NCBI RefSeq assembly: GCF_024721305.1
Contig: NZ_JAMXOD010000004.1
Span: 124,001 to 188,000, forward strand
Reading direction: 5' to 3'
Length of the DNA stretch: 64,000 nt
Source: Aequitasia blattaphilus
Lineage (GTDB): Bacteria > Bacillota > Clostridia > Lachnospirales > Lachnospiraceae
Positions within the stretch are counted from its first letter, which is position 1. The number at the start of each line of letters is the position of its first letter. The translations under genes were made by a program, and so were the position numbers. The notes beneath the pieces are model-generated. The model was given only the letters and a program-made list of their open reading frames with translations. It was not told where the DNA came from and did no database searches. Shown here piece by piece: positions 55,589 to 58,774 of the stretch.

Positions 55589-56068
55589 ATGAAAATAACC
55601 CTTATAACCGTCGGAAAAATAAAAGAAAAATATTGGAAAGATGGGATAGCTGAATATTCAAAAAGACTTCAAAAATACTGTAAACTGGAGGTTCTTGAGG
55701 TTCCGGATGAAAAAACTCCTGATCAGGCAAGTGAGGCTGTTGAAAATAAGATTCGGGAAAAAGAGGGTGAGCGTATTCTTCGATTGATTCGAGAGGATTC
55801 TTACGTGATTGCTCTTGCAATCGAAGGATATAAACTGTCTTCTGAGGAATTATCTAAGAAAATCAATTCTCTTGGAATTAGTGGATGCAGCCATATATGC
55901 TTTGTAATTGGTGGATCAATAGGGCTTAGCGAGACGGTCTTAAAACGGGCGGACTATTCTCTTAGTTTTTCAGATATGACATTTCCTCACCAGATGATGA
56001 GGGTCATACTTTTGGAACAGATTTATCGTAGCTATCGTATCATTCATAATCAACCGTACCATAAATAA
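55589..56068 (+). CDS. rlmH: 23S rRNA (pseudouridine-1915-N3)-methyltransferase RlmH
   Basis: A 159-residue SPOUT methyltransferase acting on the assembled 70S ribosome at helix 69. It starts MKITLITVGKIKEKYW; the knotted SAM site is FVIGGSIGLSETV, followed by FSDMTFPHQMMRVILLEQIYRSYRI and HNQPYHK, the family C-terminus. It starts 5 nt after nfnB, so it is probably on that transcript, and is followed by a terminator. Confidence 0.96.
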   Translation: MKITLITVGKIKEKYWKDGIAEYSKRLQKYCKLEVLEVPDEKTPDQASEAVENKIREKEGERILRLIREDSYVIALAIEGYKLSSEELSKKINSLGISGCSHICFVIGGSIGLSETVLKRADYSLSFSDMTFPHQMMRVILLEQIYRSYRIIHNQPYHK

Positions 56069-56072
56069 ATAG

Positions 56073-56112
56073 AAGAGGAGGCGTTGTAGTAAGTTCTACA
56101 ATACCTCCTTTT
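56073..56112 (+). terminator. Terminator after rlmH
   Basis: AGGAGG-CG-TTGTAG (56076-56089) pairs with CTACAA-TA-CCTCCT (56096-56109) around TAAGTT, with one internal mismatch and one G-U, followed by TTT. Confidence 0.75.
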
Positions 56113-56116
56113 CTAT

Positions 56117-56274
56117 TATGATACCTACGGATTGTTTCCCACTTCGTGCTCTCACAATCCTAAAAACATTCGGAATCCGCCCGATCGGGCTACTTCCTCA
56201 TGTTTTTGCGACTTTCAAGGTCATGCTTCTGCATACGCGTATGCAAGCATGACTTTGAAAGTCTTGGTATCATA
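56117..56274. repeat. 158-bp cloverleaf-like structured element of unknown type
   Basis: An outer stem of 9 bp (TATGATACC 56117-56125 with GGTATCATA 56266-56274) encloses three hairpins. Stem A: GGATTGT (56129-56135)/ACAATCC (56154-56160) with inner CAC-TTC-GTG. Stem B: AAAAACAT (56162-56169)/ATGTTTTT (56200-56207), then GGAA/TTCC and inner palindrome GCCCGATCGGGC (56179-56190). Stem C: 56210-56236 with 56239-56263, about 25 bp with one G-U and a 2-nt bulge. Junction linkers are only one to three bases. It overlaps the final two codons and stop of the minus-strand gene. It may be a dispersed palindromic repeat, a non-autonomous mobile element or a structured RNA; no second copy was noticed in this window. 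Confidence 0.7.
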
Positions 56275-58774
56275 TGATGTGATTTTGTACCGCAATGTAG
56301 ATTGCGTCGGCTCTATTTTTAGCACCTAGTTTAATGTAAATGTTATTAATAAATTTTTTTACTCCATTAAGAGAAATGCCTAGTTGTTCTGCAATTTCGT
56401 TTCTTGTAAACCCTTGGGATAGGAGATTTAAAACAACGCGTTCTCTTTTTGTCAGGGCGAAGGTGTTGCTTCCAATTTTTCTTTTAGCGCTTTTATATGC
56501 ACTTCGAATATATTGTCGGCTGTCTTCATGTCTTTTTGCTTGAACTTCTAATTCTTTTACCCACTCCAAGTCAATGTCTAAATCTGTTCTTTGTTTAACG
56601 TAATAAAGAGTGGGAACAATTTGATTCCCAAATTCTACTATAGGCATCACAATTTTATTTTCATATACGTAATTATAGGTCTTGAGAAAATGTTCTACCG
56701 CTTTTTCTTTTTCCTGTTCCTGCATAAAATAAATTGCACTGATGACATGGTAATATATTTTCAAAATAAAGAGGCCTCTTTGCCCGAAGAGTGGCTCAAG
56801 GTGGAAGAGCATAGAGGCACTTTTTGTATAGTTGCTTATATGCATATTATAAAGTGCACTAAAGAAATAATTCCGCCCATTGCGAATTGGATACTCTTTA
56901 TACGATTCAAATTCTCCTTCTTTAATCCAATCAGCCACCTTATTCTCATCATCAACTTGAAAGTAAATTCCAGCATTTAAGAGTTCTTTCAATTTTGAGA
57001 GTGACAAATTTTGGTCTCCGGATACATACGTATTTAATAAATTCGTTTCCTGTACAACACCCTCGTAGTTTTTCTCACACAGCGCAATAAGAGCTAAAAT
57101 ATAGTGAGCTTGCATCGTAATATCGAACTGCTTCGTTAAAACAGATTTACTTATTGCAAGTCTTGCTGCCACTTTGCATTTATTAAATTCCTTTGTGTAA
57201 TAATAGGCCTCTGCTTCAAATAGATGTTCGAAACCATAATTACAATTCACACGTATTTTATCTCTTAGTTTGACAAAAGTATGAATATAATCAATCATTT
57301 CCTCCACATTTTTACTTCCATCACTTGGAAGATAGAAAACTGGATTTTCATCAAAATTTGCAAGGGTTCGATTGCCAATCAAAATATTCTCTTCCCATTC
57401 ATTAAGAGCACAATTTATGTATTCCATAGCCATTGTGTTATTCTTAATCAAGCTGATATCAGCCAGCATACAGTATATTTCCACAACTAGCTTCTTGCAA
57501 GGATTCTTTTTCTTTTCTACGGTTTTCAGCAAAGCTAAAAACATTCCTTTAGCATAATCTATTTGTCCACAGGTTACATATGTTTGCGCCAGATAAAAAT
57601 CAATCCATAAATTATCCTCCAATAATTCCTGAGGAGTGGAACCGTAAAAACTTTGTAAGTCTTTAGATAATGTATAAGAAGAACGGTCGAGTGATACAAG
57701 AGGTAATGTTTTTAAAAAGCCCTCGTGGTTTTCAACTTTCATAAACATTTCCATTGCCTCTTCATATTTTTTGCATTTAAAATACCATTCAGCAGCAGCA
57801 TTTAAGATGTTTCTTCTGTCTTCCTCACTTAAAACAATCAATTTCCCCTTTAGAAAGGTGTGATAGACTTTATGAAACGTAAAAACCTCTGTGTTGAAGT
57901 TAAAATCTACCAGTATATTCAATGAAATTTCCGAAAGAGTCTCTTCTGACGGATTTGGAAGAATCTGCTTCATTAGTCCTAATGAAAAGGAAGAAAAGAG
58001 GGAGCATTTAATCAAGGCAATCTGTATCTCCTGACTATAGTTTCCATAATAATGGTTTTCAAACAGTTCAAATAAGATCATATACGTTTTATTTTCATCC
58101 ATTGTTTCGCAAAGCATATCCAAAAAAATCGGCCAGCCATCTGTTTTTTTGAGAACCTCATCTAAAAATCTCCCATCAAGTACATAGTTATTTATTTCCA
58201 TATATTTTTTTGCATCTTCATAATCAAAAGCCAAATCATTTGCTGTTATTCTTGTATAAGATCCCGGATTTTTATAATCATCATAAAATGGATTTTTGTA
58301 GGAAGAGAGCCGCTCACAGCTGAGTAATATATGATGGGGAATAAATGCCTTCTCAAAGGTGTCAAGTTTAATACAGCGGTTGATAAATTGAAGGATATCT
58401 CTATTGGTTAAGATTTCATAATTGTCATAGATCACTGTAATTTCGATTTGCTCCTTGCTACAGGAACGCAAAAGGTGATAAAATTGAGTGAAATCTTCTA
58501 TATTCACCGGCATGGATATGTTTTTCAAAACAGACGCAACTCCTGGAAAACTACCAATCAGAGCACGAGAAAAAGTATTCCAGAAAAAATCGATATCATT
58601 TTCTAATTCTGTTATATTTATCCATATGCATGGAGTAGATAGTCGCGATATATACTCTCGAACCACAGTAGTTTTGCCGTATCCCGGAGGAGCCACAACT
58701 GTAATCAATGGACTCTGCAGTCCAGTCGTTAATAATGCTTCAACCTTTTCTTTAATTAAAATATGTTCTGCCAT
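56270..58774 (-). CDS. MalT-like ATP-dependent LuxR-family regulator
   Basis: An 834-residue large LuxR-type transcription factor. An N-terminal STAND ATPase has Walker A APPGYGKTT at 28-36 and IYDNYE further on. A long middle part of TPR-like helices (about 330-750) follows, and a C-terminal LuxR helix-turn-helix (about 772-830) reads LTKRERVVLNLLSQGFTRNEIAEQLGISLNGVKKFINNIYIKLGAKNRADAI. MalT uses such a layout to sense a small molecule with ATP; the inducer here is unknown. GAGGTG precedes the ATG. No structural genes are adjacent on its strand. A structured element overlaps its stop, and a palindrome lies near -41.5 of its promoter. Confidence 0.9.
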   Translation of the reverse strand: MAEHILIKEKVEALLTTGLQSPLITVVAPPGYGKTTVVREYISRLSTPCIWINITELENDIDFFWNTFSRALIGSFPGVASVLKNISMPVNIEDFTQFYHLLRSCSKEQIEITVIYDNYEILTNRDILQFINRCIKLDTFEKAFIPHHILLSCERLSSYKNPFYDDYKNPGSYTRITANDLAFDYEDAKKYMEINNYVLDGRFLDEVLKKTDGWPIFLDMLCETMDENKTYMILFELFENHYYGNYSQEIQIALIKCSLFSSFSLGLMKQILPNPSEETLSEISLNILVDFNFNTEVFTFHKVYHTFLKGKLIVLSEEDRRNILNAAAEWYFKCKKYEEAMEMFMKVENHEGFLKTLPLVSLDRSSYTLSKDLQSFYGSTPQELLEDNLWIDFYLAQTYVTCGQIDYAKGMFLALLKTVEKKKNPCKKLVVEIYCMLADISLIKNNTMAMEYINCALNEWEENILIGNRTLANFDENPVFYLPSDGSKNVEEMIDYIHTFVKLRDKIRVNCNYGFEHLFEAEAYYYTKEFNKCKVAARLAISKSVLTKQFDITMQAHYILALIALCEKNYEGVVQETNLLNTYVSGDQNLSLSKLKELLNAGIYFQVDDENKVADWIKEGEFESYKEYPIRNGRNYFFSALYNMHISNYTKSASMLFHLEPLFGQRGLFILKIYYHVISAIYFMQEQEKEKAVEHFLKTYNYVYENKIVMPIVEFGNQIVPTLYYVKQRTDLDIDLEWVKELEVQAKRHEDSRQYIRSAYKSAKRKIGSNTFALTKRERVVLNLLSQGFTRNEIAEQLGISLNGVKKFINNIYIKLGAKNRADAIYIAVQNHII

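Follow-up and report, generated by a model that had tools for sequence, protein, structure and literature searches.

What would a closed four-way junction be doing at the very end of a regulator gene, and how did it get there? The segment that raises the question occupies positions 56117–56274 of a 64,000-nucleotide stretch of the Aequitasia blattaphilus genome (the whole of the stretch that we analyzed, hereafter the window). The original prediction, made from the letters of the sequence, took it for an element with no known family that could be either a dispersed palindromic element or an RNA of cloverleaf shape. That interpretation survives in part: the element does have a family, and both alternatives hold for the family as a whole, which is dispersed and apparently mobile in many Lachnospiraceae genomes and has stems that covary.

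Results

A Structured RNA at the End of a luxR-Type Gene

The inverted repeats are where they had been predicted, as both a repeat search and folding confirm. The search returned the 9-bp arms of an outer stem (56117–56125/56266–56274, 100% identity), the 19-nt arms of a long hairpin (56210–56228/56245–56263, 95%) together with a 9-bp inner palindrome, and a quasi-palindrome at 56162–56207; a pair of 7-bp arms (56129–56135/56154–56160) is visible in the fold. When the segment 56110–56280 is folded alone, it closes into a four-way junction on either strand, with energies of −71.2 kcal/mol on the plus strand (z −10.5) and −72.8 kcal/mol on the minus strand (z −9.5), and on neither strand was any of 200 dinucleotide shuffles as good. 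An ordinary terminator is ruled out, the element being a four-way junction without a U-run of its own.

The absence of a family did not stand up to a search of Rfam. With cmscan, positions 56119–56272 of the minus strand match RF01699, the Clostridiales-1 RNA, over the full model (1–166), at 114.6 bits against a gathering cut-off of 48 (E 2.4e-25); we therefore reject the idea of an element without a family. In the alignment, the element shares the four-way junction and the conserved loops of RF01699, and its host family, Lachnospiraceae, fits the range of the RNA (Clostridiales). The name Clostridiales-1 dates from 2010, when the RNA was described as one of 104 candidates; a table of the describing paper enters it as "RNA? 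y, cis-reg n, switch n" (PMC2864571). As a family, it is already known; in the openly licensed main text of PMC articles, we found no report of its function or mobility, and neither the mobility nor the stop-codon bias of low-copy forms was found there in print.

Read on the minus strand, the outer stem P1 consists of a 5' strand at 56266–56274 and a 3' strand at 56117–56125, an inverted repeat of 9 bp that includes two pairs beyond the Rfam model. The long hairpin, P2, is defined by the repeats and the fold at 56210–56263; it had been predicted at about 25 bp, and the hairpin is indeed present, its length being 23–24 pairs. The tip of P2 sets the window copy apart from the family, departing from the usual GCUUGC found in most of 24 aligned copies. 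Fold and alignment together place the hairpin P3 at 56162–56207, its internal loops AUGAG/CGAAU being near-invariant among the 24 copies, and the hairpin P4 (GGAUUGU.../...ACAAUCC), with a conserved purine-rich internal loop, at 56129–56160.

The RNA lies directly 3' of, and in sense with, an ORF at 56270–58774 on the minus strand, which encodes a LuxR-type regulator of 834 aa (Pfam GerE, PF00196, E 5.9e-15) that we assume to resemble MalT. The stop codon of this gene (56270–56272) coincides with bases 1–3 of the RNA and is situated inside P1; the RNA is presumably the 3' UTR of the gene and cotranscribed with it. In a scan of 55900–56600, the nearest promoter-like match on the minus strand is ~235 nt upstream of the element, within the luxR-type gene. 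The convergent neighbor is an ORF at 55589–56068 on the plus strand, which we take to be rlmH-like, and between it and the element there is a terminator-like hairpin (56070–56115) that folds at −24.9 kcal/mol on the minus strand, where it is the next structure after the RNA in the 3' direction. An rlmH terminator beside the element had been part of the original prediction, and as a terminator-like hairpin it is there; since the scan for consensus terminators lists it on neither strand, we only infer that termination takes place at it. In a genus-mate (G077), a matching pair of genes stands tail to tail with ~90 bp between the stop codons and no match to the RNA between them; the rlmH protein is 60% identical to that of the window and the other protein of the pair, 43%.

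Distribution and Copy Number

The window element is the single copy of RF01699 in its own genome (all 37 candidates scored), and two genomes of the same genus have no copy. A draw of 398 genomes of the host's family, the host's own among them, contained 214 with a match of E ≤ 0.001, 177 of these with one above the curated cut-off; a phylum-wide draw of 398 gave 4 genomes with a match, all in the host's family. Clostridiales-1 is found here only in Lachnospiraceae. At least 120 matching stretches were recorded; of the 80 titles among the matches listed, most name Lachnospiraceae or Clostridiales/Eubacteriales without further classification, a few give a genus, and one reads Lactobacillus rogosae. 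Ten genomes from other genera, chosen for the RF01699 matches that the family draw had found in them, hold 3, 10, 15, 20, 21, 31, 67, at least 87, at least 93, and at least 96 copies; at most 6 candidates per genome were scored in the 398-genome draw and at most 106 in the rescoring, and the high copy numbers are lower bounds.

A plasmid search with the window copy gave no match, and a phage search with it gave one record, covering 26% of the query. Eight unannotated human-gut phage records (H2–H9) match 23–86% of a mobile copy and are a possible route of the element between hosts. A Butyrivibrio fibrisolvens plasmid carries a copy between histidine kinase and response regulator genes on the same strand, one of three places in that record. 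Over the compared stretch, the loci L207 and L208 have the same sequence even as their genomes (G155 and G317) come from different listed genera, which reflects either transfer or contamination of an assembly.

A Mobile Form in High-Copy Genomes

In several high-copy genomes, the element measures mostly 184–205 bp (range 183–211, from TGAT to CATC), starting with GATRCCAGGGTCAAAAGG and ending in the inverted counterpart, ...CCCCWACATC. Among 53 copies with both ends, selected by the 3' end pattern and not by duplication, 36 are flanked by a 7–8 bp direct repeat, against a mean of 1.2 and a maximum of 7 in shuffles. The first base is not T in five copies, three of which repeat the odd base downstream; that base therefore belongs to the target duplication. 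Some copies are arranged head to tail with one duplication between them. In G271, the 5' end motif has 90 sites and the reversed control 0. The motif is not universal, as G282 has 20 copies of the RNA yet no site of it. With G282 set apart, the high-copy relatives carry both the terminal inverted repeats and the target duplications by which MITEs are recognized, and their sequences suggest that Clostridiales-1 is a high-copy mobile element in many Lachnospiraceae genomes.

Nine mini-elements of 50–120 bp, found in G392 (2), G232 (4), G319 (2), and G271 (1), share these ends but retain little of the RNA core or nothing of it, and by eye, a direct repeat surrounds seven of the nine. Such mini-elements suggest that nothing beyond the ends is required and that the RNA core is cargo. 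A locus without the element was found in G791, where 89 bp lie between aligned coding blocks that in its genus-mate G038 are separated by 279; the excess of 190 bp is about the size of an element and its duplication. The G791 locus is ~70% identical to that of G038 at the DNA level, and since both G791 and G077 are divergent, the absence of the element from them could be loss.

No autonomous element with the same ends was seen in three inward-facing pairs of ends 1.4–2.1 kb apart: the intervals hold, judging from their translations by eye, dehydrogenase- and peptidase-like genes, a MATE-like transporter, and other ordinary-looking genes. A transposase of the IS1634/IS4 type was rejected as a candidate, DDE_Tnp_1 having 0 matches in G271 (87 scored copies) and 4 in G038. 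Several G271 copies (e.g., C1:3382829) share a longer 3' extension of another kind where the short arm of the inverted repeat would be expected, and one (L117:3110–3365) has, by eye, ~60 extra bases inserted within the RNA.

The flanks of the window copy were inspected for the same features. They contain no terminal inverted-repeat arm, no 3' arm after the outer stem, and, according also to a direct-repeat test, no target-site duplication, and the end motif is near control level in the genome (17 sites vs. 12). Its mobile origin consequently rests on homology, and the best reading is that of a relic of a structured mini-transposon, no longer mobile and without transposon ends.

Low-Copy Forms at Stop Codons

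Low-copy forms were collected by hand from 39 of the 214 positive genomes, those with few but mostly strong matches. Rescoring gave 1–6 matches in each and 73 in all, of which 50 were fetched; 20 of the 23 left out were below the curated cut-off and 3 above it. The final 50 loci exclude L208, which duplicates L207, and include the window copy; L011, L014, L016, L019, and L020, all from multi-copy genomes, were kept out. Genes were defined mechanically as open frames of at least 100 residues. Most low-copy forms have no recognizable transposon ends, and direct repeats are not in excess among them (6 of 50, shuffle mean 4.9).

Of the 50 loci, the window's among them, 24 have an element that starts within −30 to +10 nt of a sense stop codon; the antisense mirror image was seen in one (L197), and this locus is itself also adjacent to a stop codon in sense. 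Between co-directional genes, 25 low-copy loci are in sense and 6 in antisense (44 loci have genes on both sides). The mobile-type copies, on the other hand, include 4 sense and 7 antisense cases next to stop codons (n = 53) and 11 and 14, respectively, between co-directional genes. Comparing 24:1 with 4:7 gives a Fisher p of 2.8e-4, a value that overstates independence because the genomes are related.

A second sample, from named genomes, comprised 59 copies without a recognized end, 53 of 123 matches having been dropped as too near an edge or with no outer stem found. Within a distance window of −25 to +12, it contains 20 sense stop-adjacent copies (18 distinct genes, L320 and L325 being counted twice) and 2 antisense ones; between co-directional genes, 26 are in sense and 10 in antisense. 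One of its loci, L292, is the site of L192. The copies classed here as nonmobile include some with diverged ends (e.g., L252, L270, L317, and L319), and a shared 7-mer flanks 17 of the 59 (shuffle mean 5.8, maximum 14); given this excess, the set still holds mobile-type copies that the end pattern missed.

By eye, about one-quarter of the 50 loci in the low-copy set follow a T-run like that of a terminator, a position that a 3' UTR role in its simple form leaves unexplained. In L205, L207, L211, L212, L219, L220, L228, L232, and L235, the element starts immediately downstream of a terminator-like hairpin and its T-run; in L205 and L232, downstream bases pair with the tail of the T-run and lengthen the outer stem. 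The 3' flanks of L193, L226, L233, L235, and L019 contain a partial second copy of the inner hairpins, as if the element had grown by local duplication.

A Pfam match was found for 36 of the 41 upstream proteins scanned, leaving 5 without one. The upstream genes include groEL (3) and thiolase (2); those for EF-G, S11, RNA polymerase beta', DnaN, and RuvA; phosphoglycerate kinase (pgk), phosphofructokinase (pfk), and flagellar proteins; and one gyrB-type gene that is followed by a gyrA-type gene. Many of the proteins in this listing serve core functions.

Pairing Constraint and Strand

In an alignment of 24 copies made without reference to structure, 94.9% of the cells in 31 pairs of P1, P3, and P4 are paired, and 25 of the 31 tested pairs change on both sides; none of 500 shuffles reaches either measure, and all slid versions are also below. 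P2 was omitted from the covariation count as too variable to align, and an automatic model (R1) that missed both P1 and P2 was set aside. A chance or strain-specific palindrome, the fallback of the original prediction, would have neither further copies nor compensatory changes; the 214 matching genomes of the family and the 25 co-changing pairs provide both. Across 51 sequences (49 low-copy ones plus L011 and L019, the window copy excluded), the outer stem is Watson–Crick in 328 of 357 cells, with all four Watson–Crick pair types at four of its seven positions and three types at the other three. The stem often runs on into the host flank, at least four extra pairs being present in 13 of 50 loci (shuffle mean 0.8, maximum 4). 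It is possible that inverted repeats perfected by template switching would mimic such covariation.

If this strand were selected as RNA, an excess of G–U over A–C cells would be expected. The stems of 43 copies from multi-copy genomes have 30 G–U and 7 A–C cells, and the strand test found 97 vs. 36, with 39 of the G–U cells in one column; by genome, the counts are 20 vs. 3 in G038 (19 copies) and 14 vs. 9 in G271 (33 copies). The low-copy set, where the alignment is poor, shows no excess (28 vs. 26). At the level of sequence, the pattern suggests, rather than proves, selection on this strand as RNA.

Discussion

We read the window element as a formerly mobile copy of the Clostridiales-1 mini-transposon that has been retained at the 3' end of the luxR-type mRNA as a folded element, perhaps a barrier to decay; in our judgment, the chances that this reading is right are about even. 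It starts from the family membership of the element, the marks of mobility in its relatives, the pairing constraint on P1, P3, and P4, and the sense bias of low-copy forms at stop codons. The mobile form would insert beside stop codons in both orientations, and mainly the sense copies would persist, as folded 3' UTRs or intercistronic segments; with the low-copy copies at stop codons nearly all in sense, their selective retention is the simplest reading. Once there, the compact four-way junction behind the terminating ribosome could hinder the passage of 3'-to-5' exonucleases, and it may thereby keep the upstream message while the downstream gene can still be transcribed. In the window, the luxR-type mRNA would have the RNA as its tail, and the hairpin shared with rlmH would close it on the 3' side.

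By analogy with two groups of known repeats, REP and bcr3, a barrier to 3'-to-5' decay seems the likeliest function. REP/BIME palindromic repeats are described in PMC3733652 as lying mostly downstream of genes and as proposed to stabilize mRNA, and in their position and palindromic nature they resemble Clostridiales-1. The same paper gives REPs as 20–40 bp long, many with GTAG tags and RAYT transposases, whereas Clostridiales-1 is a four-way junction of 150–200 nt, set apart by size and description, and its mobile form has inverted-repeat ends and target duplications. The repeats of Bacillus cereus, the best documented parallel, are, according to PMC3446304, MITE-like and often located in UTRs or between genes within operons; housekeeping genes and longer half-lives are associated with bcr3, no such link with half-life was seen for bcr1, and the cause was left open there. 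Eighteen bcr types of 100–400 bp and a TTTAT-associated site are given in PMC6542083. The likeness of bcr1–bcr3 to Clostridiales-1, as MITE-like repeats in UTRs and operons, is one of description; they belong to another taxon, and their TTTAT-associated site differs from the 7–8 bp A/T-rich duplications of Clostridiales-1.

The inverted-repeat ends, target duplications, and high copy number would also suit a purely selfish or by now dead mini-transposon, the structure of which serves transposition, as folded single-stranded DNA or a cruciform, and the sense bias of which comes from the removal of harmful antisense copies. We think this unlikely: the core seems unneeded in cis, given that the nine mini-elements share the ends without most or all of it, and the low-copy forms, mostly without ends, still keep the outer stem paired. 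Should the RNA instead be the functional unit, it could be an independent small RNA that is transcribed from a promoter of its own and acts in trans; the tabulated entry in PMC2864571, as an RNA and not a cis-regulatory one, points that way, and so do the internal-loop nucleotides, conserved beyond the needs of pairing. The proximity of the sense stop codon in 24 of 50 low-copy loci leaves little intergenic room for a promoter, however, and the nearest promoter-like match on the minus strand of the scanned part lies inside the luxR-type gene, which makes a trans-acting RNA quite improbable in our view. The near-invariance of the P3 and P4 loop nucleotides across 24 copies has one more possible meaning, namely, that the mRNA contains a sensor or an element to which a protein binds, with a partner at the conserved GA-rich loops and a regulatory role rather than that of a passive barrier. 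No common pathway is evident among the 36 upstream genes that Pfam recognizes, though, and we give such an element a similarly low probability.

The retained 3' element of the luxR-type mRNA would be one case of something wider. Tentatively, and with more doubt than for the window itself, we propose that this noncoding RNA of Rfam is the cargo of a transposon, an inserter at stop codons whose survivors are mainly in sense and have repeatedly been adopted as the 3' ends of core genes, the tail of the window's luxR-type gene being one of them. The candidates for such adoption are the genes of GroEL, RNA polymerase beta', EF-G, and gyrase across the Lachnospiraceae. A catalogued "noncoding RNA," then, can be a mobile element, and if the copies at stop codons shape the half-life of mRNAs, many operons of gut bacteria would carry a mobile, ready-made 3' regulatory part.
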